Below, in pieces: positions 30,714 through 62,830 of a stretch of 64,000 bases of DNA. Where the stretch lies: positions 43,277 through 107,276 of the IMG/VR virus record IMGVR_UViG_3300050025_000126, one strand, 5' to 3'. The notes beneath the pieces are model-generated. The model was not told the origin of the DNA. It did no database searches and saw only the letters and a list, made by a program, of their open reading frames with translations. Positions within the stretch are counted from its first letter, which is position 1, and each line of letters starts with the position of its first letter. This DNA comes from a virus. The position numbers and the translations under genes were made by a program.

Positions 30714-31916
30714 TTATCCCTTTAACATAATGAATTCTTGTTGCCATTCAGCCCCAGAACGAAGAGGTCCGTTCAGGGCATCCTTTTTGATCTTAGATAG
30801 GAGTTTTTTGCCCCCTCCAAAGAATGCCGAAGCCATTTTCCCAACCTCAGCTGGTTTCATTAACCCGATTTCAAACTTCTTGTCAATCCTACCAGAGCGG
30901 ATTAAGGCTGGTCGCAACTTCTCAATGTGATTTGTCGTCATCACCAATATCCTGCCCTCAATAGAGCAAGCCCCGTCAATAGCATTTAAAACAGCTGACA
31001 TTGAAACCGGCGACGTTTGATTGTCTTCTTCTTTATCGTTCTTCTTTTTGTTTTTATTAGACTTATCGGGTGGTTCTAGGACATCAGCGTCTTCAATTAG
31101 TACGATAGCGTTCCTAGGAACATTAGAAAAGGCCTGAGAAAAATTCTGTTCACTGCCGGAAGAAAAGGGGTTTAGAAGGTAGAGGGGCCTATCTAAAACC
31201 GAGGCCATGGTAATCGCCGCAGAGGTTTTTCCAGTGCCAGGAGGTCCGTAGAAAAGATACCCCATTCTGTAGGGTACACCTCTCTTTAAGTACCAACTCT
31301 CATTTTCGCAAAACCATTTAGCGTGGTCAAATATTTCTGTCTTTAATTCTTCTGGGATAAATAAACGGTCCAGGGGTCTTTTCGATCTTGTCTCTATTTC
31401 TGTCCAATATCCATAATTCCCAGTGACATACAGCCTTATCTTGTCTTTCTTGTTTTTTTCTTGTTCCTTCTCGATTTTTTCAATAATATCCAATATCTTC
31501 TTATGGCTTCTGCCAAAAACAGTGAGATAGATGGTCTCCTTTGGCCTTATTGTATAAGCCCCGCTATTTACCTTATCGTCCTGTACTCTTCTTACAAATA
31601 TTGGTAAAACGTTTCCGTCCCAAAAAACATGTTCACCAAACCCAGGAGCGAGTCTAGCTGTGGCTGACCCAATAGAAAAGAACTTCAGATTTCTTGATTT
31701 CTCGGAAAAAGACTGCTGAGACAACCAAACGTTAATTAAATCAAACGCTTTATCTTCTCCAGTTACGGCAAGCGTTATTGTTATTCTTCTCAAAAGGAAA
31801 GAATAAACTTTAATCGGCAATGACTTAAACATGTACATTACCGCACCGGAAATCATTACGGCAATCACGCCTTCCACAACAGGATTTTTGAACAGACCAG
31901 AAAGGAATTCTATCAC
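30714..31916 (-). CDS. BCS1-like membrane-anchored AAA ATPase
   Basis: A 400-residue protein. An N-terminal hydrophobic segment (residues about 13-31) is followed by a BCS1_N-like region (to about 190). The AAA module has Walker A GPPGTGKT (224-231), Walker B AIVLIEDADVL, sensor MTTNH and arginine finger region RSGRIDKKFEIG. A Lys-rich loop (NKNKKKNDKEEDN) interrupts it. BCS1 proteins form membrane rings that move folded proteins; homologues occur in phages and bacteria without known targets. It overlaps the upstream gene by 4 bases. Confidence 0.75.
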   Translation of the reverse strand: MIEFLSGLFKNPVVEGVIAVMISGAVMYMFKSLPIKVYSFLLRRITITLAVTGEDKAFDLINVWLSQQSFSEKSRNLKFFSIGSATARLAPGFGEHVFWDGNVLPIFVRRVQDDKVNSGAYTIRPKETIYLTVFGRSHKKILDIIEKIEKEQEKNKKDKIRLYVTGNYGYWTEIETRSKRPLDRLFIPEELKTEIFDHAKWFCENESWYLKRGVPYRMGYLFYGPPGTGKTSAAITMASVLDRPLYLLNPFSSGSEQNFSQAFSNVPRNAIVLIEDADVLEPPDKSNKNKKKNDKEEDNQTSPVSMSAVLNAIDGACSIEGRILVMTTNHIEKLRPALIRSGRIDKKFEIGLMKPAEVGKMASAFFGGGKKLLSKIKKDALNGPLRSGAEWQQEFIMLKG

Positions 31917-32727: not shown

Positions 32728-33309
32728 ATGTATCAAGAAAATCGAGTTACAACAAAAGAATTCGGGTCACTGGCTACTAGCTCTGACCTGTTAGTAAACG
32801 TTCCTACAGCTCCTGGACACCCCCAACAACGCCTACATGTAGTTGCCGCTAAACTATTGGTTCCCATGTCTGAAGCCGTACAGAGAGACCTGGGCTTTCC
32901 TCTACTGGTAGCCTCAGGTTGGCGCCCTCATCGTTGGGCGTCTAGAGAACAGTATGAACAGGTTCTGATTCAAAAATATGGAAGCGTAGCTAAAGGTAGA
33001 TTATATTTGGCTTTTGACTCACCACATGAAACGGGCCTAGCAATGGATCTAGGTTGTGGCGGACTTGAACCAGTTTCAGCAACAATTGAGAAGCAAAAAT
33101 CAACCCCTCTGTTTAAATGGCTTGTTGAAAACGCTTATAAATACAATTTCACTCCATACCGCGTTGAGTCATGGCACTGGGAATGTCGGATTAGCTTAAA
33201 CGCATACGATTCTGGAGTAGCAGACAACACCACTCCAGAACCCGTAACTACTTGTATGGACCCAAATGACGTTTGTATCGAAACGGTTACAGCCCCGCTA
33301 ATGCCCTAG
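32728..33309 (+). CDS. VanY/LAS-type D-Ala-D-Ala carboxypeptidase, probable endolysin
   Basis: A 193-residue protein with the LAS metallopeptidase signature: SGWRP, then HETGLAMDL (H-x(6)-D zinc ligands) and SWHWEC (catalytic Glu context and third ligand His). These enzymes cut peptidoglycan peptides, as in phage L-alanoyl-D-glutamate or D-Ala-D-Ala endolysins. No signal peptide, so release would need a holin. It stands alone on the plus strand in a minus-strand region with its own late element. Its last 23 bases overlap the convergent gene. Confidence 0.8.
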   Translation: MYQENRVTTKEFGSLATSSDLLVNVPTAPGHPQQRLHVVAAKLLVPMSEAVQRDLGFPLLVASGWRPHRWASREQYEQVLIQKYGSVAKGRLYLAFDSPHETGLAMDLGCGGLEPVSATIEKQKSTPLFKWLVENAYKYNFTPYRVESWHWECRISLNAYDSGVADNTTPEPVTTCMDPNDVCIETVTAPLMP

Positions 33310-34741
33310 CTCTAATTACGTCAAATCCTTCTTCGTAGACAAACTTACCGTCTACCCAAACCGGTTGCAAAACGCTTAGGGCTTCTTGTTCTGGTGTTGC
33401 CTGGCTTATTAGTTCAAGCTTACCGTTTGCATTAGGAATCACGGCTAGGCGACCTTTAGCAGAATTCTTCATGCCGTTATCTGTAATTGGCTTCTTGAAA
33501 ATGTCGTAGCCTTTGCCATCGATCTGAACCCAGGTAGCCTTCATGGCGAAACCAAAGGTGTCTCGCGTCACGTATTGATATGTGAAGCTGCCGATACCAA
33601 AGACCATATTGCCAGAAGCAAAGCCTTTCTTGGCCAAACCGTTGCAAATTGCCTCACAGCGCTCAAACGTAATAGAGTCGCCGTAGATGCATCCGATGTG
33701 CTGGTCAAGTAGTCGGTGCCCGGTATTAGTTTCCGTGCCTCCAAAGACGTCCCAGAGGCATTCCACGACGCCTTTATAGGCAGGGCTGCCAACGGCTGCG
33801 TCTGGGTCGCCACAGATAATCTTTACAGGGTCTCCGCTATCTGGCCGAATGACCACTTTGCCATAACGCGCCATAATCCTAGTCTTAAGGGCTGGCAGAA
33901 TCTTGGTGAGAACGGCCCAAAGGTCCCAAGTATCTGACACAATGCTTACAATGCCAGCAGGGTAGAGGTCAAGAAGACGTTCAAAGGTCTGCTGTTCGGA
34001 CATTTCGCCACCAGCACACATGACGCTGTGTTCGGTTGCCGCAACGCTTCCACCAATAAAATAATCTGAAGGTGGAGTATAGTAATCCTCAACAAAATCC
34101 AAGGCCGGAACCGTATCTGTACCGATAAAATACAACAAGTGCCCCGCTCCAGACGACGCAGCCGCTTCAGGACAGCCCATACCACGGAAGCTAAAATCAT
34201 GTCCCTGCCAGCCGACAAACCCATCGGGGCTACCAGTTAGCTTGGCCTTCTCATTCAAAAGCTTGCGCATCCTAGAAGCAGTAGTAGCAGATGTACAAGG
34301 CATCCATAGGACGCAAGACATAATTGTCTCAAAGTAGTTGACCAACCAGGCAAAATCTTTGTGGGTGTTTTCAACTGTCAGCATCGGGCAGCGAAGGGGG
34401 ACCTTAGAACCCTCCTTGACGGCAGAAAACTTGAGAGGCAGGTAACCTAAATTGTGTAGTTCGCGAATGTGGTCTGAGCCAATTTGGTTTGGGCCAAGAT
34501 AGCCATTGACACGCTTGGTATATCGGTCGCAGACTTCATCAACGTTAGAGGTAAAGAACTTGTTCCACTCTGCCATCATGTACTTCTTGAGGAAGAACTG
34601 GAGGCCGAAGAAAACAACCTCGTCCTGGGCAGCGATACGGGACATCCTGGGGGTCCAGTTGCTGTATACAAATTCCGTACATGTAGGATATTGACGCCTA
34701 TGGTCAAATTTGTATCCGTCAATCATAGTTTCTGGCTTCAT
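33287..34741 (-). CDS. Nicotinamide phosphoribosyltransferase family enzyme, probable Namat of NARP1
   Basis: A 484-residue protein with NAMPT-family motifs: GTDTVPALD, AATEHSVM with the catalytic His, and RPDSGDPV with the catalytic Asp. NAMPT joins nicotinamide to PRPP to make NMN. In the phage NARP1 pathway a family member (Namat) instead joins nicotinamide to ADP-ribose-pyrophosphate, restoring NAD+ directly after host defences cleave it. The adjacent, 1-base-overlapping PRPP-synthetase-like gene is the NARP1 partner arrangement. Which substrate this enzyme uses cannot be read from the motifs. Confidence 0.8.
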   Translation of the reverse strand: MKPETMIDGYKFDHRRQYPTCTEFVYSNWTPRMSRIAAQDEVVFFGLQFFLKKYMMAEWNKFFTSNVDEVCDRYTKRVNGYLGPNQIGSDHIRELHNLGYLPLKFSAVKEGSKVPLRCPMLTVENTHKDFAWLVNYFETIMSCVLWMPCTSATTASRMRKLLNEKAKLTGSPDGFVGWQGHDFSFRGMGCPEAAASSGAGHLLYFIGTDTVPALDFVEDYYTPPSDYFIGGSVAATEHSVMCAGGEMSEQQTFERLLDLYPAGIVSIVSDTWDLWAVLTKILPALKTRIMARYGKVVIRPDSGDPVKIICGDPDAAVGSPAYKGVVECLWDVFGGTETNTGHRLLDQHIGCIYGDSITFERCEAICNGLAKKGFASGNMVFGIGSFTYQYVTRDTFGFAMKATWVQIDGKGYDIFKKPITDNGMKNSAKGRLAVIPNANGKLELISQATPEQEALSVLQPVWVDGKFVYEEGFDVIRARALAGL

Positions 34742-35610
34742 TAGTAATTACCTTTCATCAATTGTTCACAAATTTCAATAACTTTTACACCTGGAATGTC
34801 TTCTGGCCGATTTACAATCGAATCAGTAGTATATACGTTTTCAAACCGCTTAGTCAAGGCTTTCGTTCCTTGGCTGAAAATACCGTGAGTTACAAAAAGG
34901 TCCGCATTAATATTGCTCTCTGCTAACTTATCACCGAGGCCTAGAAAGGTTCCTCCACCGTCGCAAATATCATCCACAATCAAAACCTTGTCTGTAGGGG
35001 CAAATGGTTCATGACCAAATCCTGTAATTTTGCCGTCTTTGACATCTCTAGACTTCCAGGCGTGGATAAGAGGAACCTTCATAGCCTTAGCAAACATCCC
35101 AGCACGCTTTTCAGCTCCTGCGTCTGGGCTAACTACCGCGCAATACTTTGGTTGGTAAAAATATCCAGAAAGGTGAAAAGCTATGTCGCTATGGACGACT
35201 TCGCAATTATTGATAAGGCCTGCAATTACCTCAGAGTGTGGGTCCAGGACGATAACCTTCCTAAACTGACGCTCATTAATCATATTAGCTACAGACTTAG
35301 CTGTAAACAAGAAGTCTCCTGTATTGTTCAAACGGTCTTGTCGTGCTCCTGGAACCGAGGGAAGGACGAGTGTTGGCAGGTCGTATCCACGCCACTTAAA
35401 GGCATCTACAAAAAACAATGCAGCAAGTAAATCTGTCATTGTAAGAGGCCTTACGAGGATAGATTTAAGGCTACCTTCAAATGGCCGAGCCTGACCCATA
35501 ACGTAATACTTTGGGTGTTGTACAATAGGAACATTGTCAGGATAGACGTTGTTGTCGATCTCGATAATTTGATTGGTGTTTGTTAGAGCGTGGATTCTTA
35601 CGTTTTTCAT
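34741..35610 (-). CDS. Ribose-phosphate pyrophosphokinase family enzyme, probable Adps of NARP1
   Basis: A 289-residue protein of the PRPP synthetase family: DLLAALFFVDAFK, PSVPGARQDR, VLDPHSEVI, SPDAGAEKRA and the PRPP loop VLIVDDICDGGGT. PRPP synthetase transfers pyrophosphate from ATP to ribose-5-phosphate; the NARP1 relative Adps does this to ADP-ribose. It precedes and overlaps the NAMPT-family gene by one base (ATGA-like junction), so the two are made together. The pair should keep NAD+ available during infection. Confidence 0.8.
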   Translation of the reverse strand: MKNVRIHALTNTNQIIEIDNNVYPDNVPIVQHPKYYVMGQARPFEGSLKSILVRPLTMTDLLAALFFVDAFKWRGYDLPTLVLPSVPGARQDRLNNTGDFLFTAKSVANMINERQFRKVIVLDPHSEVIAGLINNCEVVHSDIAFHLSGYFYQPKYCAVVSPDAGAEKRAGMFAKAMKVPLIHAWKSRDVKDGKITGFGHEPFAPTDKVLIVDDICDGGGTFLGLGDKLAESNINADLFVTHGIFSQGTKALTKRFENVYTTDSIVNRPEDIPGVKVIEICEQLMKGNY

Positions 35611-35624
35611 GGACGTACTCTACC

Positions 35625-35921
35625 TTATTTCTTGTCTTTTGGCAAGTCTTTTATTCGATAGGTTGCCGGTTTGTCATTACTGTAAATCTGAACTAGAAGC
35701 GGGGTATTGGGGCGGTCGTGTCCCTCATGATCCTGGCAAATCTTATTCCAAATCCTTACCGCTTCATAAAGAGTTCTTGCCTTCGATTGCCACGAGAAGG
35801 TACATTTAGGATTGGAGCAAAAGATAAGAATAGTTCCCTTGCCATCAATTCTAATTCCCCAGCCGCAAGTACACTTCGGGCAGTTAGAGGGCTCATTCCA
35901 TTCGACAAGTTTAGTCGGCAT
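35625..35921 (-). CDS. Lar-like (restriction alleviation) zinc protein
   Basis: A 98-residue protein with a CPKC (residues about 14-17) and a second Cys pair (CSNPKC), followed by ALYEAVRIWN, close to the A-V-x-x-W-N tail of the Lar restriction alleviation family (CP.CG ... A...AI..WN). Lar proteins modulate type I restriction; many phage members are uncharacterised. The zinc-binding and WN motifs are visible; the antirestriction role is inferred. Its ATG overlaps the end of the 30-residue gene upstream. Confidence 0.6.
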   Translation of the reverse strand: MPTKLVEWNEPSNCPKCTCGWGIRIDGKGTILIFCSNPKCTFSWQSKARTLYEAVRIWNKICQDHEGHDRPNTPLLVQIYSNDKPATYRIKDLPKDKK

Positions 35922-36009: not shown

Positions 36010-36049
36010 ATTATAGTATTTTAGATACAAATAGTCAACAACAATCTTA
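36010..36049. promoter_or_regulatory. Divergent early/late promoter with GTCAACAACAATCTT
   Basis: Minus strand: TTGACT (36033-36038), 17-base spacer, TATAAT (36010-36015), for the 30-residue/Lar/NAD unit. Plus strand: GTCAACAACAATCTTA (36034-36049), 5 bases before the HNH gene ATG at 36055. Confidence 0.65.
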
Positions 36050-36054
36050 CAGCT

Positions 36055-36681
36055 ATGAATGAAATTGCCCCCATAGAAGGTCTATATCAAGTTTTGTTAA
36101 AGTGGTGCCCCAAATGTAAACTAGAAAAACCTGTTGATATGTTTGGTAAAAGCCGAAGGACAAAAGACGGATTACGCTGGTGTTGTAAATTGTGTAATAA
36201 CATATCTTCGATAGCGTACAACGAAGCTCACCCGGACCAGATAATCGCGAGTAAAAAATTGTGGCGTGAAAACAACAAAGATCGAATTCTAGCCAAATCA
36301 AGATTATGGCGCCATGCTAATAAGCCAAAGATAAACGCAAGAGAAAAAAACCGAAGACTGACAGACCCACAACATAAACTGTCGAGCAACCTAAGATGTA
36401 GGGTTAACGCAGCTATTAAAAGTGGTCGCAAGGCTGGCTCTGCTGTAAGAGATTGTGGATGCTCTATGGAGTTTCTGAAAGCTTATTTGGAGGCCAAATT
36501 TCAGCCAGGCATGAGTTGGGGCAATTGGGGACGCAAGGGTTGGCATATCGATCACATCACCCCGTTAGACGCCTTTGACCTTACCAATCGTGAACAATTT
36601 TTAACAGCAAACCACTACACCAATCTTCAACCTTTGTGGTGGCAAGATAATTTATCAAAACATAATTCGATTAATTTATGA
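36055..36681 (+). CDS. HNH endonuclease with N-terminal zinc ribbon
   Basis: A 208-residue protein. The N-terminus has CPKCKLEKPVDMF ... CCKLCN, a zinc ribbon of the type tripled in the protein at 5309. The C-terminus WHIDHITPLDAFDL ... LQPLWWQDNLSKHN is a HNH core with the catalytic DH. Basic in between. A free-standing mobile nuclease on the plus strand in a minus-strand region, with its own late-type element. Converges with the RNA ligase gene 3 bases away. Confidence 0.8.
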   Translation: MNEIAPIEGLYQVLLKWCPKCKLEKPVDMFGKSRRTKDGLRWCCKLCNNISSIAYNEAHPDQIIASKKLWRENNKDRILAKSRLWRHANKPKINAREKNRRLTDPQHKLSSNLRCRVNAAIKSGRKAGSAVRDCGCSMEFLKAYLEAKFQPGMSWGNWGRKGWHIDHITPLDAFDLTNREQFLTANHYTNLQPLWWQDNLSKHNSINL

Positions 36682-36683
36682 CT

Positions 36684-37787
36684 TTATTCAGTTATACCGA
36701 TTAGTTTCATGTATGCGCCTAGAGACAGTTTAGGTGATGTCAGACATTGAGCGGCTGACGCTCCGGTCTTGCGCATCTGGAAGAGAATAGAGGCGAACGG
36801 ATACTTGGTAGCTTCCAGGGCGAATTCCTTTTGGTTCTCAATATGCTTGATAGACTGATATGCCATAAATGCCGTGAAGCGACAATTAGCGTCTAGCTCG
36901 AAAATCTCGTCAAAAATCTTCCTCAATTCTGGGAAGCTATTGAGGGCCAACCCAAATTCAGAGGCTTCCCCCTTCCTAATTATTTCGCACATTCTCTTCT
37001 TGGACAAAGAGTCCTTGGCGTGGTGCAACATAACGTAGGCTGGCGACTTGATTTTAACACGGTTGAAATTGGCGTCAACTACAACGTACCCCTCGTGCTC
37101 CAAAGGATTAAGGGCTTCTGCTGCTTTGATACAATCATCAACAGAATGGAGAGGAAAGCTCTTAGGACAGGGGGTGTTGAGCTTATGTCCTAGCCCCAGC
37201 ATATTGGGAGTTAGCTCCTGTAGAGTGGTGTTGTCCCTAGCTCCTAGTAGCCAAATTTTACAATCCTTATGGTCGACTACAACCCTATTGAAAGGTGTGG
37301 TTAGTTCAAAAATCCAGGTGTAGCTTGGGCCTAAAAATTCAATCGTTGCTTTTTGGGCTTTAACAGTCTCCCAGAATAGCTCCTTGAAGGTCTTGCCAAA
37401 GCCGTTTACTTCACCAGATGCGTCAGGGGTTCCAGATGTTGCAATGTGCCACTTGTTGTCGTAATGGTAAAGCAGAATGAGGCTTCCGTCAATTTTTTCT
37501 TGCACCTCCGCAGTAAGCCAGTCGATGTTTGCGGCTAATGATTCGCTCTGGTTGTGGATTTTTTTAAATCCCATTGCCACAACGTTCCAATTGTCCGATT
37601 CGTCAAGTATGATTCCTCGGGCCTCTTGAACGATAGGCTCTTTGAACGGTGAGTCAATTTGATTATATTTAAAAAGACAAAGCTGCGGGTATTCACCGTG
37701 GCGCTTACAATCAATAGCAAAACGAGACTTTAGCTCTTCGATGCCATTTGGCGTTTCTCGTAAGAATTTTTGAGTTTCTAGTTCCAT
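36684..37787 (-). CDS. RNA ligase, T4 Rnl1 family
   Basis: A 367-residue protein. Motif I EKIDGSL places the AMP-accepting Lys at 98; the upstream KKIHNQSE and the downstream WIFELTTP and EGYVV, VKIKS segments fit motifs Ia, IIIa, IV and V. T4 Rnl1 repairs tRNA cut by host anticodon nucleases, together with a kinase-phosphatase. The adjacent second RNA ligase, tRNA cluster and HAD phosphatase support an RNA repair role. No overlap with the neighbour at 37843. Confidence 0.8.
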   Translation of the reverse strand: MELETQKFLRETPNGIEELKSRFAIDCKRHGEYPQLCLFKYNQIDSPFKEPIVQEARGIILDESDNWNVVAMGFKKIHNQSESLAANIDWLTAEVQEKIDGSLILLYHYDNKWHIATSGTPDASGEVNGFGKTFKELFWETVKAQKATIEFLGPSYTWIFELTTPFNRVVVDHKDCKIWLLGARDNTTLQELTPNMLGLGHKLNTPCPKSFPLHSVDDCIKAAEALNPLEHEGYVVVDANFNRVKIKSPAYVMLHHAKDSLSKKRMCEIIRKGEASEFGLALNSFPELRKIFDEIFELDANCRFTAFMAYQSIKHIENQKEFALEATKYPFASILFQMRKTGASAAQCLTSPKLSLGAYMKLIGITE

Positions 37788-37842
37788 GATTCTGTGATTC
37801 TTTTAATTAACGCTTCCAAATATCTTCAAAAATACAAGGGAA

Positions 37843-38826
37843 TTAAGCACTCTTTCTCAAAAGATACCCCTCGCCAATCATCTTTAGGATAACTCTGCCG
37901 CACTTGTGGTCCCATCGCTCTTTAATGGGCCGTGCAACGAACCCCTCTCGCACGTGGTCAGCGTTCGGCAATGTCGTCTTGCCTTCGGCCAAGGACAGTA
38001 AATTTTGCGTCCAAGGGCCTCTGTATAGCTCTGGAGCTGTATTGAGGTCTAGCTTAGATATTAGAGCCCTGAAATCGTCATAGTCTAAGTAACGCCGTGT
38101 GTTTACATACATTGCGTCAAAGCAAATAAGTTTAACGCCAGAAGTAATACCATAACGCAAGTCTTGAACCTGGCCGTAAGCCTCTCCATAAACAGCAATG
38201 TCTGGAATAGTAGCTAATTTTTCTTGCAAAAAGTAATCTGACGCCAACTTCCACCACAAATTACGTTCGTCAAACTTTTTAACGTTCTTGTGCGATCCAA
38301 CCCACAACCGGTTGTTTTTAAACAGGAACCTTGAGTTTGATCCGTGTACCTTCTCGGTTAAGACCACTTCCTCACCCGTAACAAAGACCCCCTTATGCTT
38401 CCTAAGCCCCTCAATGTCAGTATAGACAGGTAGGAACCCTGGGTCAGATTCGTTTTCGGTATTCATATATTCAGCCCGGTCTAGTTCTGGCTCCCACTTT
38501 TCAATGCCGAGCACCTTTTGGACGTTTTGGCCCTCTATCCATTCTGGCAAAGCCTTGGTAAATAGCCCCATAGAAAATACACCACGAAGCTTCCTGGCCT
38601 TAATGCGTCGGTGACCACTTAGAAAGGCCCATTCAGGCGAATCTGGCACAATAGAGTCAACTGGCACATAAGTTGCAAGCTGGCCTTCTTCAAAGTCTCC
38701 TGTGCGAAAAATAACAGGATACCCTAGCTCCTTATCCCCATCAATATAGGTAATAGACAAGGTATCAGCGTTAGGGTGCTTTTCTACTGGGCCTATTTTT
38801 ACGACTCTTACATTAAATTCACTCAT
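37843..38826 (-). CDS. RNA ligase with N-terminal OB-like domain (Rnl5/DraRnl-like)
   Basis: I choose the ATG at 38826 (327 residues); the longer frame runs into the tRNA cluster. The N-terminal 110 residues (VVKIGPVEKHPNADTLSI ... RTGDFEEGQLATYVPVDSIV) resemble the OB-like domain of Deinococcus RNA ligase and tRNA-binding domains. The ligase core has motif I TEKVHGSN (Lys about 159), VYGEAYG (motif III), EGFVARP (motif IV) and KCGRVILKMI (motif V). Such ligases seal 3'-OH/5'-P nicks in RNA. It is the first gene downstream of the RNA cluster. Confidence 0.8.
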   Translation of the reverse strand: MSEFNVRVVKIGPVEKHPNADTLSITYIDGDKELGYPVIFRTGDFEEGQLATYVPVDSIVPDSPEWAFLSGHRRIKARKLRGVFSMGLFTKALPEWIEGQNVQKVLGIEKWEPELDRAEYMNTENESDPGFLPVYTDIEGLRKHKGVFVTGEEVVLTEKVHGSNSRFLFKNNRLWVGSHKNVKKFDERNLWWKLASDYFLQEKLATIPDIAVYGEAYGQVQDLRYGITSGVKLICFDAMYVNTRRYLDYDDFRALISKLDLNTAPELYRGPWTQNLLSLAEGKTTLPNADHVREGFVARPIKERWDHKCGRVILKMIGEGYLLRKSA

Positions 38827-38839
38827 ATTTATCCTTTTG

Positions 38840-38927
38840 TAGAGGTAGTAGGAGTTGAACCTACACAAACCTTGTTAGGGTCTCACGTTTATAGAACATG
38901 GGCTTTAACCAATTAAGCTATACCTCT
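38840..38927 (-). tRNA. Type II tRNA, loop TCTATAA (UAU by position), identity uncertain
   Basis: 88 bases with complete arms: acceptor AGAGGTA/TACCTCT, D-arm GCTT/AAGC with GG, anticodon stem CATGT/ACGTG (one G-U), T-arm GTAGG-TTCAACT-CCTAC, and a 19-base variable arm. By standard numbering the loop TCTATAA gives anticodon UAU but puts C, not U, at position 33. If the loop is read one base later, U33-CUA would be an amber-reading anticodon. No encoded CCA. Confidence 0.7.
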
Positions 38928-38944
38928 GAAATAATTAAGTTTTT

Positions 38945-39018
38945 GTGACCCCAACAAGATTCGGACCCACGATTTTTCAATTATAGATTGAAAGCCTTAA
39001 CCGCTTGGCCACACCTCA
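38945..39018 (-). tRNA. tRNA-like gene, good 5' half, defective 3' half
   Basis: D-arm GCC-AAGCGGTTAA-GGC (38994-39009) and anticodon arm TTCAA-TCTATAA-TTGAA (38976-38992) are intact and resemble Gln-type tRNAs; the loop equals that of the neighbouring tRNA. The T-arm pairs almost only by G-U, and the expected acceptor strands do not pair. Likely a damaged tRNA or one completed from elsewhere. Confidence 0.45.
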
Positions 39019-39151
39019 GTATTGGTGCCCGATTTTTCGTCACGAGCAACGCTACCAGCACAAGCCACCTATAGACGGTGTAGAGCGTTAGACTGGTAAG
39101 GTGATCAACCGCCAAATCTACTGCCGTGCTTACCTAACTTTTCATTAAGCG
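39019..39151 (-). ncRNA. Gene-free structured stretch ending in CACCA
   Basis: No ORF. The minus strand carries a 6-bp GGTAAG/CTTACC stem, a possible 7-bp AGCACGG/TTGTGCT pair 74 bases apart, a CACC-GTCTATA-GGTG hairpin, and a terminal GGGCACCA like an encoded tRNA end. No full cloverleaf can be drawn. Confidence 0.3.
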
Positions 39152-39225
39152 TGACGCCACCAAGACTCGAACTTGGGACCTACGGTTTAGGAAACCGTTG
39201 CTCTTTCCGGCTGAGCTATGACGCC
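39152..39225 (-). tRNA. tRNA-Arg(CCU)
   Basis: 74 bases, standard cloverleaf: acceptor GGCGTCA/TGGCGTC (two G-U), D-arm GCTC..GAGC, anticodon arm ACGGT-TTCCTAA-ACCGT with anticodon CCU reading AGG, T-arm CCAAG-TTCGAGT-CTTGG. CCA is not encoded. The best-formed tRNA in the window. Confidence 0.9.
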
Positions 39226-39286
39226 AAAATAGGAGCAGGAGACTAACCGACTGTCTTACAGCTTCCCGTATGCGAACGCATCTTGT

Positions 39287-39310
39287 TTGGCTGCCAGGGA
39301 TTGAACCTGG
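39287..39310 (-). pseudogene. tRNA 3'-end fragment (T-arm and acceptor strand)
   Basis: T-arm CCAGG-TTCAATC-CCTGG followed by CAGCCAA, a tRNA 3' half. The 5' half cannot exist here because tRNA-Phe ends 13 bases upstream. Probably a remnant, or half of a permuted or recombined tRNA. Confidence 0.45.
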
Positions 39311-39322
39311 GTTCCCGCTTTG

Positions 39323-39396
39323 CCCCTCCCCGTAGAATCGAACTACGACCTCTGCCTTTTCAGGGCAGCGCTCTAACCAATTGAGCTAGTGGAGGG
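39323..39396 (-). tRNA. tRNA-Phe(GAA)
   Basis: 74 bases: acceptor CCCTCC/GGAGGG, D-arm GCTC-AATTGGTTA-GAGC, anticodon arm CTGCC-CTGAAAA-GGCAG with anticodon GAA, T-arm CGTAG-TTCGATT-CTACG. The seventh acceptor pair is A-G and there is one extra base before the D-arm. CCA not encoded. Confidence 0.85.
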
Positions 39397-48699: not shown

Positions 48700-48885
48700 T
48701 TAGTTCAATACTATCGTTGCTTCTGCTTCTTGTTTTACTTGTGCTACCGACTTGCCCAAAAGGGTCTCTAGAAACACCAGATGCTTGTGTTGGTGTTCAA
48801 GTAATTGTAAACTAGAGTTAAGCTCCCTGGTAAGCTGTCGGATTAATCTTTGGTCTCTTGTGAGCGGCTTACTTTGTTTCTTCAT
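48700..48885 (-). CDS. Small coiled-coil protein
   Basis: A 61-residue helical protein (KKQSKPLTRDQRLIRQLTRE ... heptad leucines). Overlaps the polymerase C-terminal gene by 17 bases, so it is coupled to it; a polymerase accessory role is possible but only by context. Confidence 0.5.
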   Translation of the reverse strand: MKKQSKPLTRDQRLIRQLTRELNSSLQLLEHQHKHLVFLETLLGKSVAQVKQEAEATIVLN

Positions 48886-51151
48886 CTTTTACCTTTTCTA
48901 CGGGGCCTCTAATTAATTGTAATTTGCGGAAACTCCAGCCTTTGTTCAAGTCGGTTTTGGTAATTACTCCGACTATAATTGAACCGACCTTCAAATTCGT
49001 TACTTCTGCTGGGTATCCTCCATCTTGACCTGGCCATGATACCACTTCTTTTTTGAAACCGCAAGCGTCGATGAAAACTTTCTTGGCCGACTTGGATTTG
49101 TTTTGGTAGGAGAACGTCTCCAAATTGTCTACATGTCCTACAATTGCACACTTGAACCCGTTCTGTGGCAGTTCCAACGCCGTGTCCACATCAACAAGGT
49201 CTGCTCTACTTACAACCCTATCTACTGAATCAACCTCTTCTCTAGCTTCTCTGCTCCAGGCCTTGTAGTGGTAAAGCAAATCTCCCGTTTCGTTTTCGGT
49301 AAAATAAAGCCCATCGTTTACCGACATCAAATTCCTAATATCCTCTGAATAAGCAGGCAATACATCTTTCTTTACCTGGAAGCGCCCCAATGCGTCTAAT
49401 GTAGGATATTGGACCTTTGACTTGTTATACTTTTTCCCTTCTGCCAGCGTATAACGCTTTAGCAGTGTCTGGTATTGCTCGATTCGTTCTGCGATTGATA
49501 AATTGGGGTCGAACAAGCTGTCCAAAATCCCAGCGACAAACAATGTATGCATAGTTCCAATTGTAATAGCACTTCTACGCCACTTACCCTCTACCGCCCC
49601 AGCCTTCCTATACTCCACAATCTTCTTGCAAAAATCGTCTGCCGATTCGTAAGGCGCATATTGATTGAGCTGGGCATGGGCCGTTTCACCAATACCATAG
49701 CACAAATCAATAGGGGCTCTAATTCTATCACCTACAATAGCCCAAGTAGGCTTAGACAATTTGATATCTGGTAAGTCTACGATATTTTCGACGTAAGGCC
49801 AGAATTTTTCTGTCACTTCTTCTTTTTTAGCGTTTTTTAATACGCTACACCACCACTCTAAGGGATAGTAATGCTTGAGCCAGGCACAAGCATAAGAAAT
49901 AACTACATATCCCACACTGTGTGCTTGGCAAAAAGAGTAAGCAGAAAATTCGAGTAAGCCAGACCACACTTCTTTTGCCTTATTTAATCCAATCTTAGGT
50001 GCGGCACGTTCGGTGAAAAAGGTGTATAATTTTGCCATTTCTTCGGGCTTCTTTTTTGCTGACAATCGGCGAAACGCTTCCGCTTCGCCTCCTGTACACC
50101 CGGTTAGATTTTGATAAACCTTCTGCAACCCCTCCTGGAATACAATTAGACCATAGGTGTCAGGAAGAAGAGCGTCAAATTCTGGTAAAATGTCTTTACT
50201 ACCAGGAAGGCCTCTAACCCTTCTAGCGTACTCTACTAACAGATTGTGTTTCTGCCCTGGTACGTCTGGATTGCTGACCACATAATTAAGCGGTCCAGGG
50301 CGGTCCAGGGCGGTAAAAGCTGCCATAGCCGCAATGCTATTGATTCCAGGAGTACCGTCGGGCCTTATGTGGTTAAATTGTCTTAGCCACTGAACGGCAG
50401 ATGCTGTGTTATACTGAAATACGGTTTCTGTTTTACCTTGACTGACATCTTTGTACACATCTAGATCTGTCGGAAGGTCCCAGATATCAACAAAATTATG
50501 GGAGACAGGGTCTAGAACAAGCCGGTGAGAGGGCACCTTGCGACCGTTTACGTTTTGTTCTACGGGGGACAATTGATTCTTTCTGCTGGCAATCAATTGT
50601 AAACACGATTGAATGTCCCTTAAACACAGCACGACAAGAAAATCAAACTTTAGAGCGCCTACATTTTCAATTTCTGAACCAGTAAAGGCTGTTACCTTAA
50701 TTCCAGATACGGACGTAATAGGGATAAAGTCACTGATTGGTTTGGGAGCAATTACGAATGCAGAAGCGTGCCTTCCTCTTTGACGTGGAAGTGCTAGTGC
50801 AGACTTGGCTATAGCCCACTGTTCTGGATATTTACTAATGTAGGTCTTTAGGGCCTCGTCCCTCTCGATGCTGCCCTGATGGTTGCCTTCATCGTCAGAC
50901 CATCCCATGATAAACCTTAGGTCCGAAAGCCCCTGAGGAGGCATTTCAAATTTCTTTACAAGGTCTTCGATATCTTGAGGGACCACCCCTAGAGTAAAGC
51001 GGGCCACGTCCTTAACACTGTTCTTTAGCTTAAGTGTAGTCAAAACACTTACCTGCGCCTGGCAATCTCCAAATCTTTCCTGAAGCCAGCCAGGGAAATA
51101 TGGCTTAAGGGTGCCATTTTTAGAACTATTTGTTATTTTTGCGAATTTCAT
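48869..51151 (-). CDS. dnaE: DNA polymerase III alpha, C-terminal part (split DnaE)
   Basis: I choose ATG 51151, overlapping the stop of the N-terminal part by 4 bases (ATGA); a TTG 15 bases upstream is also in frame. The 760-residue protein starts with a 19-residue lead (MKFAKITNSSKNG...) and joins the alpha-subunit sequence at GWLQERFGDC, continuing through palm, thumb and fingers (ALKFDFLVVLCLRDIQ, holding the third catalytic Asp by alignment with E. coli D555; LDRPGPLNYVV; YGLIVFQEGLQKVYQ; FRRLSAKKKPEEMAK; AHSVGYVVISYACAWLKHYYP) to a terminal OB-like region. It lacks the first two catalytic Asp, which lie on the other polypeptide. Confidence 0.85.
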   Translation of the reverse strand: MKFAKITNSSKNGTLKPYFPGWLQERFGDCQAQVSVLTTLKLKNSVKDVARFTLGVVPQDIEDLVKKFEMPPQGLSDLRFIMGWSDDEGNHQGSIERDEALKTYISKYPEQWAIAKSALALPRQRGRHASAFVIAPKPISDFIPITSVSGIKVTAFTGSEIENVGALKFDFLVVLCLRDIQSCLQLIASRKNQLSPVEQNVNGRKVPSHRLVLDPVSHNFVDIWDLPTDLDVYKDVSQGKTETVFQYNTASAVQWLRQFNHIRPDGTPGINSIAAMAAFTALDRPGPLNYVVSNPDVPGQKHNLLVEYARRVRGLPGSKDILPEFDALLPDTYGLIVFQEGLQKVYQNLTGCTGGEAEAFRRLSAKKKPEEMAKLYTFFTERAAPKIGLNKAKEVWSGLLEFSAYSFCQAHSVGYVVISYACAWLKHYYPLEWWCSVLKNAKKEEVTEKFWPYVENIVDLPDIKLSKPTWAIVGDRIRAPIDLCYGIGETAHAQLNQYAPYESADDFCKKIVEYRKAGAVEGKWRRSAITIGTMHTLFVAGILDSLFDPNLSIAERIEQYQTLLKRYTLAEGKKYNKSKVQYPTLDALGRFQVKKDVLPAYSEDIRNLMSVNDGLYFTENETGDLLYHYKAWSREAREEVDSVDRVVSRADLVDVDTALELPQNGFKCAIVGHVDNLETFSYQNKSKSAKKVFIDACGFKKEVVSWPGQDGGYPAEVTNLKVGSIIVGVITKTDLNKGWSFRKLQLIRGPVEKVKDEETK

Positions 51152-54100
51152 TGGTTGTTCCACCAAGGAACGAAATCTATGTTTTCTTCTACCACTTTTT
51201 TAATAGGAAGTACACCTTTTTCTGTTTCTACTCGAAAATCTTCCGGGAGAACATGTTTTGTGCCATCTTCCGCCTCAACCTCTACGACATCACAGTCCTT
51301 GCCGCAAAGAAGATCTCTATTAGAGAAATCCAAATCCACGTCTGGCATAGTGTGGGACTTAATTCTGTCCAATGTAAGAAACCTGTCTAGGCTAAGTCCA
51401 TGTTGAATGGGGTCAATCGAGGTGATACCTAACAGATAAGAAAGTAACACACCTCCTGCGCTATTGTGTACCGCGTATTCAGAGGTCAAAAAGGAATGGT
51501 CATGTTCAACTTCGAGGTCAAACACCTCTTTTATTGATGAATATTCCTTACTTAAAACAGTAGACCAATATCCTATAGTTGATTCATTGGACCATCTAAA
51601 CTCTATTTTATAACTTCTATTACATAGATATTTTCCACGATAAAAAGGCTCTCTTGTATTTACAGACGATGGGATTCCAAACCTTAGAAGAGCTTCCCTA
51701 AAAGAATCCTTCAGAAGCACGCTGGTTGTATCGAAGGTGTAGCTTGGTCTTCCCTTTCCTTTTTTAGGTTTTTTTGTGTGACCATCAGAGTCCATGAGGC
51801 CCAGGAGGAGTGATTTTAGCAAATTTTTTGGCCAATTCAACCACTCTTTCGGGATGTATTTTGTTCCAGAAGAGTTTTTGTACAACGGAAACAAGCTCCG
51901 GAATAGTTTACACAGAATACTTGAACTTGCCATCAGCTGAACTAGTTTTTTAGTCTTGTGTTGGACCTCAACAGGTTTAGATACGCAGTAAGGGGCTAGA
52001 ATGGCTTTTATCTTTTCTATGCCGTCACGATCTTTTGTGTTGAACGCAACCCCTAGTCGTTGTTCTTTGTTTATCCAACCGTCCCCAATCCACCGACCCA
52101 GAAGATAGGAAAAATCTTCAGAGACGTTAATATACCTTGGGTGGTTAACAGTTTTGGGGGTCCTCCATTCGTCGACCGTGAGACCAACCTTACTTAGTTC
52201 ATCGTTTATTTTAGATAAAGCTAGAATGCTTCTTGTGGCTTTTCTCCCATTTTTCATAACAAGAGGCGGGACGTATCCGTTTCTGACTTTCCCTAGAAAG
52301 GTCCTGTTCCCACCGAGACGTCTTCCTCCAGGTATTTCGCTGATAAAAGTCCGTGAGATAATCTTCGACTCTTCAACGTCCACCCCGTCGTGGACAAACT
52401 CAGCCAAGTCTAACGGGTCTGGGGAAACTTCTTTTACCAAAATTCTAGGAGTGAAAACAACATCTCCGACTTTAAGAGCATCCGCTTCTATCCAGCTCGG
52501 GACCCATTTTTCATCTTTCCAAACCCTGATACTGGACAGAGTTGATTTGCTGAGCCTTTCCAATCCGGCAATTTTCGATCTTTTGAAACCGTATACTTTG
52601 TGGTCTTTTGTTAGAAGAAATGGAGTGTGTTTGTAGGTTGTCTTAAGCTTCACGCATTCTTCGTCTGTGTTGTATTTGAAAGTGTTCGTAACTTTGCGAA
52701 CATTTCCCTGGTGGGAGTAAACTTCATCACCGACTTTTATGTCTCTTATTTTCCTGTACCCACATGTTGTAAGAATTAAGGCGTCACCTTCTAGACAGCC
52801 TCTGGAACTGCCGACAAGAACGCCCTGGTTTTCATACAAACGGCATTGCTCCTCGCACGTAAAGAAGTAGGGCAATAGGTCCACTGTTCCGTTACGGTGG
52901 AACAGCTGTATCTCCTGCTTTAACCTAGCAATATACCTGGGGTCATCTTTAGGCATTCTGCCATGTTGTTCGATAAGTTTCTTGGTGTGACCTAAGGTAT
53001 CTTGGGGATAGAACTTTGTGGGTAGTTGTAGGGTGTTGTCGAATTTGAAGTCTTTGAACGAATCTCTAAACGCATAGCTGTTGTCAACCCAAGATTCAAA
53101 TTCTTTTTCTGAAATATTATGTTTCTCTTTGAAGTGAGCAAAGGCTTCGTCACTTGAATATCGGTGATACGAGGATGCGAACCGCCAGTCCCCCATTTGA
53201 GAAAGTTTTACATCCTGGACGATTTTCATATTTGGTGACGCGAAGTGACAATCGTCCGAGACAACTATGGGTAGGTTATATTTTTTTGCCATACCCATCA
53301 TGAAAACGTTTACCCCCCATTGCAGGTCGCCTCCTGGGGCCGCTGGAGAGCAATCATTTTGTATAAAACCTTCGTGCTTACGAACACCTATAATAGGTAG
53401 AGGAACCTCAACGTCAGTCCAGGTGTGAAAGTTCTTGATAGCCAACAGTGTTAGCTTCTTTTTTCCATTCCACTTGTCGGCTAACTCCTCGGCTTTAATC
53501 TCCCCATCTTCGGTTTTTAGGGTCTTGCCGTAGTAGAACTTCAGAGTCTTTTTTGCTTCACCTTCTCCGACCTCGATAAATACTCCTTTAGAGAATTCTC
53601 GGTCACACACATGAGGAAACACCTCAACAATCATTCTGTCACCAAACAGATGATGAAGTCTTTCAAAATAGCCCTTGGCTGCGCCTAGCTTAACGCTAGC
53701 GGGGCTCTCGGTGTTGATTAGGTGTCGGCTGACCATTCCAACCAAACACCCTGATCCAACAGTTGTTTTAGTTGCAGCAAGCTCTTCCAAATCCGACCAA
53801 TCAAACAGTGGCTTGCGCTCTGAGCCGTGGATTTCCGCTCTATCGTCAGCCTTAGATAAAAGTTTGACGCCTTTAAGATAAGCGTCGTAATTTTGAAAAC
53901 CTAACGTGATGTGGTAATATTTATTGTAAGAGTAAAACGTTCCATCTGGATGGTCAGCCTTCCAGTTATCCTTATCCATGCCACGGGGCACGGTGTCAGT
54001 TTTAGGAATGCCTAATCTAGTTAGAATAGGACAATCGTTTGACCTAAAATACGCCTCAATACCTGGAATTGCGATTAGATTGTTCTTTTTTGCAAGTGCA

Positions 54101-54249
54101 GAGATCCTGTAAATAGCGGCCAGACTTCCGTGGTCGGTTGCTGTAATGGCTCCTGTACCTAGTTCTATTTCTCTAGCACAAAAGGCCTCTGGAGTAGAGG
54201 CTGAGTCTAGAGACATTACGTGGACGTGTGGAGAAACAAAATTCTTCAA
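51148..54249 (-). CDS. dnaE: DNA polymerase III alpha, N-terminal part with intein (split DnaE)
   Basis: A 1033-residue precursor. Residues 1-70 and on are a PHP domain (SPHVHVMSL, TATDHGS). Extein continues to GSSRG, is interrupted by an intein (485-929), resumes at SAGGVLLSYLLGITSIDPI and reaches MPDVDLDFSNRD, which contains the first two catalytic Asp (E. coli D401/D403). It then ends, not in polymerase sequence but in a 42-residue tail (from Cys992) resembling the end of split-intein N-fragments (VVEVEAEDGTKHVLPEDF; VETEKGVLPIKKVVEE). Residues about 215-299 form another insertion of similar character. Coupled by ATGA to the C-terminal part. Confidence 0.85.
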   Translation of the reverse strand: MKNFVSPHVHVMSLDSASTPEAFCAREIELGTGAITATDHGSLAAIYRISALAKKNNLIAIPGIEAYFRSNDCPILTRLGIPKTDTVPRGMDKDNWKADHPDGTFYSYNKYYHITLGFQNYDAYLKGVKLLSKADDRAEIHGSERKPLFDWSDLEELAATKTTVGSGCLVGMVSRHLINTESPASVKLGAAKGYFERLHHLFGDRMIVEVFPHVCDREFSKGVFIEVGEGEAKKTLKFYYGKTLKTEDGEIKAEELADKWNGKKKLTLLAIKNFHTWTDVEVPLPIIGVRKHEGFIQNDCSPAAPGGDLQWGVNVFMMGMAKKYNLPIVVSDDCHFASPNMKIVQDVKLSQMGDWRFASSYHRYSSDEAFAHFKEKHNISEKEFESWVDNSYAFRDSFKDFKFDNTLQLPTKFYPQDTLGHTKKLIEQHGRMPKDDPRYIARLKQEIQLFHRNGTVDLLPYFFTCEEQCRLYENQGVLVGSSRGCLEGDALILTTCGYRKIRDIKVGDEVYSHQGNVRKVTNTFKYNTDEECVKLKTTYKHTPFLLTKDHKVYGFKRSKIAGLERLSKSTLSSIRVWKDEKWVPSWIEADALKVGDVVFTPRILVKEVSPDPLDLAEFVHDGVDVEESKIISRTFISEIPGGRRLGGNRTFLGKVRNGYVPPLVMKNGRKATRSILALSKINDELSKVGLTVDEWRTPKTVNHPRYINVSEDFSYLLGRWIGDGWINKEQRLGVAFNTKDRDGIEKIKAILAPYCVSKPVEVQHKTKKLVQLMASSSILCKLFRSLFPLYKNSSGTKYIPKEWLNWPKNLLKSLLLGLMDSDGHTKKPKKGKGRPSYTFDTTSVLLKDSFREALLRFGIPSSVNTREPFYRGKYLCNRSYKIEFRWSNESTIGYWSTVLSKEYSSIKEVFDLEVEHDHSFLTSEYAVHNSAGGVLLSYLLGITSIDPIQHGLSLDRFLTLDRIKSHTMPDVDLDFSNRDLLCGKDCDVVEVEAEDGTKHVLPEDFRVETEKGVLPIKKVVEENIDFVPWWNNQ
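51151..51276 (-). other. Hint/split-intein-like tail of the DnaE N-terminal part
   Basis: Encodes residues 992-1033. It begins with Cys directly after the polymerase sequence and its 45 residues align by eye with the last part (block B onward) of DnaE-type IntN fragments: V-[VF]-E-x(3)-E-D-G-T/S ... then x-G-x-L-P-I-x-x-[IV]. Block A and the first 50 residues of a normal IntN are missing. Confidence 0.45.
51463..52797 (-). mobile_element. Intein with LAGLIDADG endonuclease in DnaE
   Basis: Codes for residues 485-929 (445 residues). Starts CLEGDALILT (block A), has LTKDHKVY (block B), two LAGLIDADG motifs (LLGRWIGDG about 716-724; LLLGLMDSDG about 814-823), and ends FDLEVEHDHSFLTSEYAVHN followed by Ser (+1). 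All splicing residues are present, so it should be active in splicing; insertion is at GSSRG/SAGG in the polymerase palm region. Confidence 0.9.
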
Positions 54250-59733: not shown

Positions 59734-62577
59734 TTAACGAACAGGGCAACTTCCTGACTCACATTCGGTTCCTTCAATTGTTCCAGCTTCTTCTATATTA
59801 TCAAAATCAATAGGCTTTACTTTAGCAGACAGCTTTTCATATTGTTCTTCTGTAATTGCTTCCTTTGGAGCCTGTACAAACCCATGGCCCGTATGTCTTA
59901 GGAAGCTGACGGTCTTGATTTCGGACAGGTTGTTTGTAAGCCATTCTTTAATAGCTGGGATATCTCCATCTTTATAGTAGGCCGTTACAGAAATACTTTG
60001 GTCTGCCCAGTGTTTTTGAGCCATCTTTACTGCGTCTAGTTGTTTCCAAGTATCGAATCCTGAATCAGCGCATGGAACACCCTCAGGAGTCTTTACATAG
60101 AAATCGACGACCATAGTGTCGGGATCTAGGCTACCATCTAGACGCTTTTGAGGTTCGATATGGTGCCCGGCTTTTTGTAGTTTAGGCACTAACGGGTCGT
60201 TACCAGCGATTCTTATGCGTTGAATGAAATATTTGCTGTACGCTGGATGAATTCCTTCACACGGACTATCAAAGGCCTTGCTCAAGCTACCTGAAGGCTT
60301 GATTACGGTTGTTCTGACACTAGGGTCTATATTTAGCTCTTTGGAGTAAGTGATATTCTCTTCTTGAATTTTTGCGTATACGTAATCGAGAATGTCTGGA
60401 TTAAACAAATCTAGCCTTTGTAGGCACCCTGTGATTCCTGTCCCAATACGATGGTTTCTATTAACCACTTCCTGTACTTGGGGCCAGTGGTACTTTTCCA
60501 TCGATACCCGCTTGCCCCAACGATGCATCAGCCTAGCAGCTTCTGCAAACTCATTCTTGTCTGTAATGAAAGTGAGGTTAATATCCTGTAGATTGCAAGA
60601 TTCAGCATTTTCTAAGGTGGCTTCCCCGCAATTGCTTACATGTAGACCGCCAGTCCAATAGGTATGATCCTCTGATTCAACTGTAATGTCAAAGACTGGT
60701 TCCTCTTTGATTGGTATGACCTCTACAATGTCAAAGGTCTTTTTGGGTGTTTTTTCTTTATGAATTTTAACAACTATGGTCTGTAGCTTTTCTGCTTTAT
60801 AAGAGTGTACGAATCCGATTAGTTGTTCAAATTTTCTTTTGCCAGCCCCATAAGCGATGTTTAGGTCGTAACTCTGCCTACAAGTATACTTGCCGTTGTT
60901 GAACTCTATCTCTTTCGACCTATTGGTAGTGTAATACGAAGCTATTCCTAACGAAGATAGCATTTCCTGAACAGCCTCAATAACAAAGAATGAAGTAGCC
61001 TTTAAAACTACTCTACCTCCTGGAGTAGAACCATTAGCTGAATACAAACCGCGAAGAAATCCTCGTACCTTCTTTTCGTTGCCATACCTAAACCGGTCGG
61101 GAACTTTCCTGTCATAGGTTTTAGGAAGGGGGCCTTGTATTGTAGTTTTGATCTCCCAAGAAAAGGGACCGACGCCGGGTCTATAGACTTTAAACAGGTG
61201 AGAAACTTCACTATTCTTTACAATGCATTCGTCTTTTTCGCCAATACAAAGTAGCGTTAAATCGCCCGATGCCTTGTGCGTCGTTCCGTCTCCAAACACC
61301 ATTCCGTCCATGACATCCTGAGGTTCTAACGGAATCGGTACCCCCAGATATGGGGGAAGACATATGTCAATATTTTTTGCTTTCTTGGCCTCTACCTTTA
61401 CACCATTCGATACAACTCTATGGTTTTCTGTGCCGTAAAAAGTTCCAGCTTTTGTTTTGTAGGCGTTTACCTGTTTTGTCCCGGTATTTGTTTTCTTAAT
61501 TACGCTAGTCCAGCGTGTTCCGGACCATATAAGATCTCCAACATTAATTTTTTCTATTGTAGAAATGCCATTTGGTGTTAGAACAGTTGCCCATCCGGGC
61601 TGACATGGATTTACTACTGCTGCATAGTCTTTCTTTTCTTCTCCCATACGACCGTACTTGCGAATGTTTGGAAGATTGATAATACCAAATGCTTCACCTT
61701 GCTTATAAGTCTCCCAGAACAGAGGTCTCAGGTCGTGCTCTACATCTGAGGCAACGATTGAAAAGTTAGCCATGCTTCGATAGGTTGGTATTGACCCAAG
61801 GTCCCAACGCTTAGCCTTGAGAAATTCGCGGTCCCATGCATCGCCTTGAATTAGTATCGCACTTCTACGCACATTTCCTGACACTACCATCTGTGCAACA
61901 CAACAGATAAGGTCCGCCATGTCAATTGGTCGTAGCTTCTTACCTTGTCTAGCCGTAAATACTCCACATAGGTTTTCTACCATACGAACCAAAGGCCTAG
62001 GACCTGAACTAATGCCACCAAACCCAGCAATAATCTCCCCAGGTCCTCTTACACAGATCGTACTATAACTAAATCCCTTGCCAGTGACAAACCAAGCTTC
62101 TAAAACCTTGTACAGTAACCGACACCATCCTTCTCTTGTGTCAGGAACAATAAAATCCGTATCCTTAGTTAAACGATGGGTGATAACAACATCCTTCTTA
62201 ATCTTAGGAAGTTGGTCTACGTATTTGGACTCAACACTAAACCCAACTCCTCCACCTAGCATAAGAAGGTCTGCTGCAATTACTAAATTGTTCCAGTCGT
62301 CTCCTAAGAATCCCCAGCAATTAGTGAGCGCTGCCCCACCTAACTTACTCTGATTCTTGGTCCCAGAAATCCAAAGGCCCCTTCCCGCAGGAGATGCCTT
62401 GCGCTCCAGCATAAAATATCGCAGACGTTCAATTTCCTTGTCTGTTACGTTATGCCCCCTTACATTACCTGTAATTACTCGTTCTACAATTTCGGGGTAG
62501 GTTTCAATTCTATTTCCGAAAGGTCTAGCATAAGTCCTGGAAATTACTACGTTAGCTAGATTACTAATTTGTGACAT
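59734..62577 (-). CDS. nrdJ: Ribonucleotide reductase, class II (adenosylcobalamin), with intein
   Basis: I choose ATG 62577 (947 residues; MSQISNL), as the longer frame overlaps the upstream gene more. The mature enzyme (about 622 residues after splicing) resembles monomeric class II reductases: ASPAGRGLWISG, GGGVGFSVES, SGNVRRSA, NP-CGEATLENAESCN active site, and the redox tail CESGSCPVR. No NrdB/NrdD-activase partner is nearby, as expected for class II. It makes dNTPs from NTPs using vitamin B12, independent of oxygen. The intein interrupts the catalytic NP-C motif. Confidence 0.85.
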   Translation of the reverse strand: MSQISNLANVVISRTYARPFGNRIETYPEIVERVITGNVRGHNVTDKEIERLRYFMLERKASPAGRGLWISGTKNQSKLGGAALTNCWGFLGDDWNNLVIAADLLMLGGGVGFSVESKYVDQLPKIKKDVVITHRLTKDTDFIVPDTREGWCRLLYKVLEAWFVTGKGFSYSTICVRGPGEIIAGFGGISSGPRPLVRMVENLCGVFTARQGKKLRPIDMADLICCVAQMVVSGNVRRSAILIQGDAWDREFLKAKRWDLGSIPTYRSMANFSIVASDVEHDLRPLFWETYKQGEAFGIINLPNIRKYGRMGEEKKDYAAVVNPCQPGWATVLTPNGISTIEKINVGDLIWSGTRWTSVIKKTNTGTKQVNAYKTKAGTFYGTENHRVVSNGVKVEAKKAKNIDICLPPYLGVPIPLEPQDVMDGMVFGDGTTHKASGDLTLLCIGEKDECIVKNSEVSHLFKVYRPGVGPFSWEIKTTIQGPLPKTYDRKVPDRFRYGNEKKVRGFLRGLYSANGSTPGGRVVLKATSFFVIEAVQEMLSSLGIASYYTTNRSKEIEFNNGKYTCRQSYDLNIAYGAGKRKFEQLIGFVHSYKAEKLQTIVVKIHKEKTPKKTFDIVEVIPIKEEPVFDITVESEDHTYWTGGLHVSNCGEATLENAESCNLQDINLTFITDKNEFAEAARLMHRWGKRVSMEKYHWPQVQEVVNRNHRIGTGITGCLQRLDLFNPDILDYVYAKIQEENITYSKELNIDPSVRTTVIKPSGSLSKAFDSPCEGIHPAYSKYFIQRIRIAGNDPLVPKLQKAGHHIEPQKRLDGSLDPDTMVVDFYVKTPEGVPCADSGFDTWKQLDAVKMAQKHWADQSISVTAYYKDGDIPAIKEWLTNNLSEIKTVSFLRHTGHGFVQAPKEAITEEQYEKLSAKVKPIDFDNIEEAGTIEGTECESGSCPVR
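60631..61605 (-). mobile_element. Intein in the ribonucleotide reductase active site
   Basis: Codes for residues 325-649 (325 residues). Begins CQPGWATVLT, has GTENHRVV (block B), two LAGLIDADG-like motifs (MDGMVFGDGT about 423-432; FLRGLYSANG about 507-516, the second lacking its acidic residue) and ends GGLHVSN then Cys. The penultimate His of most inteins is Ser here. The +1 Cys is the enzyme's own active-site residue. Confidence 0.85.
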
Positions 62578-62830
62578 TTTTCTTAAAGACTCCATAATAC
62601 AGTAAAATGACCCAACACATAAAACCAACTAGATAATTGCAAAACAAAACCGTGCTGAACCCATAGGACAACAGCAAGAACAAATATTGTACCATAGTAC
62701 CAAGGCAAATGACAAGGGAGATATCGACCGGAGTGCCTAAAGATTTGCCAGCTTTGATAGTTCTAATTACAGCTGGTAAGGCGGCGAAAGCAAACAGTGC
62801 TCCGCCAATAAGACCTAGGAGGGAGAGCAT
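62564..62830 (-). CDS. SemiSWEET/PQ-loop-like three-helix membrane protein
   Basis: An 88-residue protein with three membrane helices. Residues 5-40 (GLIGGALFAFAALPAVIRTI and KAGKSLG) match the PQ-loop/SemiSWEET pattern of a helix ending in P, then R-x-I-K-x-x-K-S. Full SemiSWEETs are about 90 residues and work as dimers moving sugars. Rare in phages. It overlaps the resolvase gene by 1 base and the reductase by 14. Confidence 0.6.
   Translation of the reverse strand: MLSLLGLIGGALFAFAALPAVIRTIKAGKSLGTPVDISLVICLGTMVQYLFLLLSYGFSTVLFCNYLVGFMCWVILLYYGVFKKNVTN

Follow-up and report, generated by a model that had tools for sequence, protein, structure and literature searches.

Does the pair of PRPP-synthetase-family and NAMPT-family genes in this phage DNA encode a plain NMN-salvage route, or does it encode the NARP1 pathway, an already known, published system that is common in phages? 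We analysed a window of 64,000 nucleotides, meaning the whole stretch of bases 43277-107276 of a 107,276-bp IMG/VR virus record whose completeness is uncertain. The contig outside the pair, read in stretches and through family searches, has genes for baseplate, helicase, primase, DNA polymerase and recombinase functions, those of a tailed phage. The preliminary description had reported the two genes as overlapping by one base and had favoured NARP1. The pair and its overlap are confirmed by the ORF coordinates, the TAATG junction and the PHROG and PDB matches described below, and both ORFs are intact, with open frames, at the positions first given for them (Table 1).

Table 1. Features of the predicted NARP1 locus, numbered on the 64,000-nucleotide window.
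Feature	Position	Strand	Basis or remark
Adps gene: predicted ADP-ribose pyrophosphate synthetase, PRPP-synthetase fold, 289 aa	34741..35610	-	PHROG, clade, residues, AF2 model
Namat gene: predicted nicotinamide ADP-ribose transferase, NAMPT fold, 484 aa	33287..34741	-	best PDB match, clamp motif, tree
TAATG junction: Adps stop and Namat start share one base	34739..34743	-	direct sequence reading
98-aa ORF, 14 bases upstream of Adps	35625..35921	-	Cys pairs suggestive of zinc ribbon
Putative sigma-70-like promoter TTGACT-17-TATAAT	36010..36038	-	5' of 98-aa ORF, Adps and Namat; 11/12 consensus

On the coding strand the Adps/Namat junction reads GGTAATTACTAATGAAGCC, and the overlap is exactly one base, at 34741, because the last A of the Adps TAA is also the A of the Namat ATG. 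A Shine-Dalgarno-like AAAGGT lies just 5' of this junction. The 98-aa ORF, for which Pfam and PHROG searches gave no match, is probably the first gene of the Adps-Namat transcript; a homologue (52% identity) stands at the same place in the related locus L005 and is not found in L006 or L007. The putative promoter is the best among 17 promoter-like sites in the region (mean of 11 in shuffled sequence), as ranked by consensus match only.

The 484-aa product matches PHROG 448 'nicotinamide phosphoribosyl transferase' (E 4e-187), and its best PDB match (E 3e-151) is 9W5X/9W5W, the phage SPbetaL1 Namat bound to nicotinamide and to NAD+ (PMC12774641). Namat owes its use of ADPR-pyrophosphate (ADPR-PP) to an adenine clamp, made of a helix motif rich in aromatic residues, GSX-phi-X-phi-X-phi-TRD, together with a stacking residue, which in SPbetaL1 is Arg40 of the beta1-beta2 loop (PMC12774641). 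In alignment columns numbered as in SPbetaL1, the motif of the window protein is complete, as GSFTYQYVTRD, and R40, F392, Y396, T398, R399 and D400 are all present. Its Arg at aligned position 40 sits in NWTPRMSRI, and is one of the loop forms that we took to mark NARP1 (Arg40 of SPbetaL1, or Lys/Tyr and then a stacking residue). The Nampt-like catalytic core is identical (D13, Y15, F189, R192, D215, the catalytic His, R306 and D308), and all clamp and core residues of PMC12774641 are kept except A362, a position occupied by Ser in the window Namat as in each of the eight further phage Namats of the comparison, those of ICP1 and DyoEdafos among them. Human Nampt and five phage Nampts, used as controls, show GG-type motifs (GGGLLQ..RD or similar) and a shorter loop in the alignment. 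The molecule in 9KE8 groups with SPbetaL1 Namat yet has GAQTYQRNTRD. In the Namat tree the window protein falls inside the set spanned by the Namats of SPbetaL1, DyoEdafos, ICP1 and VpaE1 (the last a phage of the same genus as Bas63).

For the 289-aa product the matches are PHROG 619 'ribose-phosphate pyrophosphokinase' (E 1e-60) and TIGR01251 (E 9e-29, below the family's curated cut-off), and an AF2 model with a mean pLDDT of 91 has only PRPP synthetases as best PDB matches (TM 0.71-0.78). Its catalytic R90, D92, H125, K186, R188, D213 and D214 are the same as in Prs; R96, D98, H131, K194, R196, D220 and D221 of E. coli Prs (alignment numbering) are invariant in 58/58 Adps-type sequences, the window protein included. 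Adps and Prs differ at about fifteen conserved positions, and the window protein carries the Adps letter at each; its Adps-only residues include S126, A166, G193, I215, C216, G218 and F222. The most telling difference is in a loop that reads VDDICDGGGTF against VDDMIDTGGTL in Prs, with Gly218 in place of Prs Thr225 and an invariant Phe222. The Prs loop binds the 5'-phosphate of ribose-5-phosphate, at the place where ADP-ribose carries its ADP. We tentatively suggest that the Adps loop, through Gly218 and Phe222, might be what lets ADP-ribose into the ribose-5-phosphate site of a PRPP-synthetase fold, a reading that we hold with rather more doubt than conviction. If true, this loop would be the still undescribed Adps counterpart of the Namat selectivity clamp; neither PMC12774641 nor a further search led us to a solved structure behind Adps specificity.

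Phylogeny, which the preliminary description had proposed as a check, was run for both proteins. A tree joining the window Namat to human and phage Nampt was rejected (AU p 8e-6), and the window Adps lies in the phage Adps clade, its joining to Prs being rejected as well (AU p 0.003). The Adps clustering is the weaker of the two because its tree has several long branches and only a few Prs controls, mostly gammaproteobacterial.

These residues and trees bear directly on the plain NMN-salvage reading, in which a true PRPP synthetase would feed a true Nampt and host enzymes would turn the NMN into NAD+. The two folds are also those of Prs and Nampt, generic profiles name the proteins ribose-phosphate pyrophosphokinase and nicotinate/nicotinamide phosphoribosyltransferase, and characterised Namat retains PRPP-dependent NMN synthesis in vitro (PMC12774641), so that some NMN output by the window Namat is possible. 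However, the clamp residues, which are absent from Nampt, are all present here, the PRS-family protein carries the Adps-only residues, and clustering with the genuine enzymes fails for both proteins. Moreover, the Nampts of phages phi-Grn1, KMI9, Aes012, CcrBL9 and Mx1 are without the clamp, and no PRPP synthetase is annotated in the flank shown for any of them; a search of the whole Mx1 record gave none either. We therefore regard plain NMN salvage as highly improbable.

The preliminary description had also leaned on the lack of an NMN adenylyltransferase in the window. This extends to the whole 107,276-bp contig, where PF01467 gave no match at E<=1 and 14/14 control genomes matched; it is the weaker argument for NARP1 because the host could supply such an enzyme. 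NARP2-type systems (Schizotequatrovirus; Mx1) resemble the window pair in that they also rebuild NAD+ from nicotinamide, but they do so with an NMN adenylyltransferase and a clamp-less Nampt, neither of which is found here.

Among annotated phages, Myxococcus phage Mx1 is also alone in having a DNA polymerase that aligns with that of the window phage over most of its length (40% identity), and the two have in common the gene order nuclease, polymerase, SSB and RecA-like protein. Mx1 encodes a clamp-less Nampt (GGALLQMVNRD) and an annotated NMN adenylyltransferase; no Adps was found in a profile search of its whole record, which was run without a positive control, the same profile recovering distant Prs elsewhere. 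Because the window carries predicted NARP1 and Mx1 a NARP2-type system, two routes of refilling NAD+ appear to exist in phages with a common replication module. At 48869-54249 the window DNA polymerase III alpha gene is broken into two ORFs that overlap in different frames, the Mx1 gene being uninterrupted. The first of these ORFs contains, at residues ~485-929, an intein-like insertion that matches Hint and LAGLIDADG. A B12-dependent-type ribonucleotide reductase ORF at 59734-62628 also has a LAGLIDADG insertion, probably another intein.

The two families are also found together. In 73/80 IMG/VR relatives found by Namat, an Adps-type gene precedes the Namat gene on the same strand; conversely, the fetched stretch contains a NAMPT-family gene in 78/80 loci found by Adps, with the Namat motif in 77/78, the remaining ORF being truncated and its motif unreadable. 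Drawn as they are from near relatives of the query proteins, these counts are no census. Because of this co-occurrence we consider that Adps and Namat are inherited as a unit, which fits two steps joined by a private intermediate. By tblastn, relatives of the window Namat occur in 1938 phage records and those of Adps in 1412, numbers that include distant Nampt and Prs homologues; among 50,697 phage records there was no DNA-level relative of the window phage. The pair stays adjacent in relatives with 91 and 82% Namat identity, both frames are open and all catalytic residues are intact, observations that leave a decayed, non-functional operon with next to no probability.

Some relatives have altered clamp regions. 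In L025 (4974-7295) a 773-aa Namat ORF holds an intein-like insertion of ~285 aa exactly inside the clamp motif, GSF/TYQHVTRD; it starts with Cys, ends with His-Asn before Thr and has LAGMLDGEG within, and a Pfam intein search gave no match. In the Namats of L063, L069, L070, L072, L074, L075, L077, L078 and L080 the clamp helix is lengthened by seven inserted residues (e.g. GSFTYQGAVTPDAIITRD), and most of these loci have their Adps gene several hundred bases or more upstream. Such Namats possibly have a different donor preference.

Among characterised systems, the SPbetaL1 and DyoEdafos pairs yield NAD+ from ADPR in vitro (PMC12774641, PMC13232231), and by genetic evidence NrsAB of ICP1 restores NAD+ and defeats SIR2-HerA in infection (PMC11559045). 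The SPbetaL1 operon is likewise made of two genes, Adps first, and its Namat has the six clamp residues listed above and the motif GSFTYQY-TRD; its sequence has diverged, however, only the window genes overlap by one base, and the window phage is unrelated to SPbeta. Nearest in the trees is the DyoEdafos pair (gp77, gp79; PMC13232231), whose Namat is 54% identical to that of the window. Unlike the window operon, it has a RyDEP gene between its two genes, and it has His at the position of Tyr396, where SPbetaL1 and the window have Tyr. ICP1 NrsAB (PMC11559045) has the same gene order and motif class as the window pair but differs from it in two clamp residues, with Lys at 40 (Arg in the window) and Tyr at 392 (Phe in the window).

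Taken together, the clamp residues, the trees of both proteins, the Adps-only residues and co-inheritance support the NARP1-type reading of the preliminary description. The window pair is very probably a NARP1 system that would rebuild NAD+ from ADP-ribose and nicotinamide and so counter NAD+-depleting defences. Adps would transfer pyrophosphate from ATP to ADP-ribose, giving ADPR-PP, and Namat would combine ADPR-PP with nicotinamide straight into NAD+, without passing through NMN or needing an NMN adenylyltransferase. ADP-ribose and nicotinamide are the leftovers of TIR, SIR2 and SEFIR NADase effectors, and because these leftovers are the predicted substrates of the pair, the phage would refill its NAD+ pool and survive the depletion. 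We infer both reactions, and the role in counter-defence, from descent and residues; that the pair is expressed during infection is likewise an inference.

A NARP1 pair could instead serve mainly in general NAD+/ADPR housekeeping during infection, and not against a dedicated defence. Bacterial chromosomal NARP1 exists, with homeostasis as its proposed role (PMC12774641), and NAD+ drops during infection by a related Pakpunavirus with these genes (PMC12846349). Against this, the close relative ICP1 needs its pair specifically on SIR2-HerA hosts, the pair being costly where the defence is absent (PMC11559045). In addition, L006 and L007, which with 82% Namat identity belong to the nearest relatives, carry directly after Namat a gene of the RyR-domain family, known to neutralise Thoeris signals (L006:6391-6825 and L007:6198-6470; PF02026, E 6e-14 and 8e-12), with the catalytic and ligand residues H75, W78, H100 and D117 of RyDEP conserved. 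RyDEP proteins either break down or sequester the cADPR signals of Thoeris and are able to feed NARP1 (PMC13232231). Housekeeping as the main role is thus unlikely, and we keep to NARP1 as a counter-defence. In the window the slot after Namat is empty, the Namat stop overlapping a convergent VanY-type gene, and the contig holds none of the RyR-domain, macro-domain and Nudix helper genes known to feed NARP1.

The surroundings of the operon hold further genes. Upstream of it, at 36684-38868, are two different RNA-ligase genes (PF09511, PF09414), beside tRNA genes at 38839-39396; the two ligases possibly repair RNA and so counter tRNA-cutting defences. In Adele, DyoEdafos and NiceHouse, too, NARP1 has RNA ligase or kinase genes as neighbours. 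We considered a link between RNA repair and NARP1 and claim no such association, because crude similarity searches, which had no background for comparison, found an RNA ligase or kinase in just 9/80 relatives. An HNH/endonuclease VII-type gene on the opposite strand (36055-36681) separates the RNA ligase from the operon; it is likely a mobile insertion, because it is present at the same place in L005 yet missing from L006 and L007. At 30714-31916 the phage encodes a BCS1-like AAA ATPase whose N-terminal domain is of the BCS1 type (PF08740).

As a NARP1 pair, these genes would extend the system to a deep, uncultured lineage of tailed phages. The comparison of residues, for its part, offers a concrete proposal for how Adps may choose ADP-ribose, a question left open by PMC12774641.
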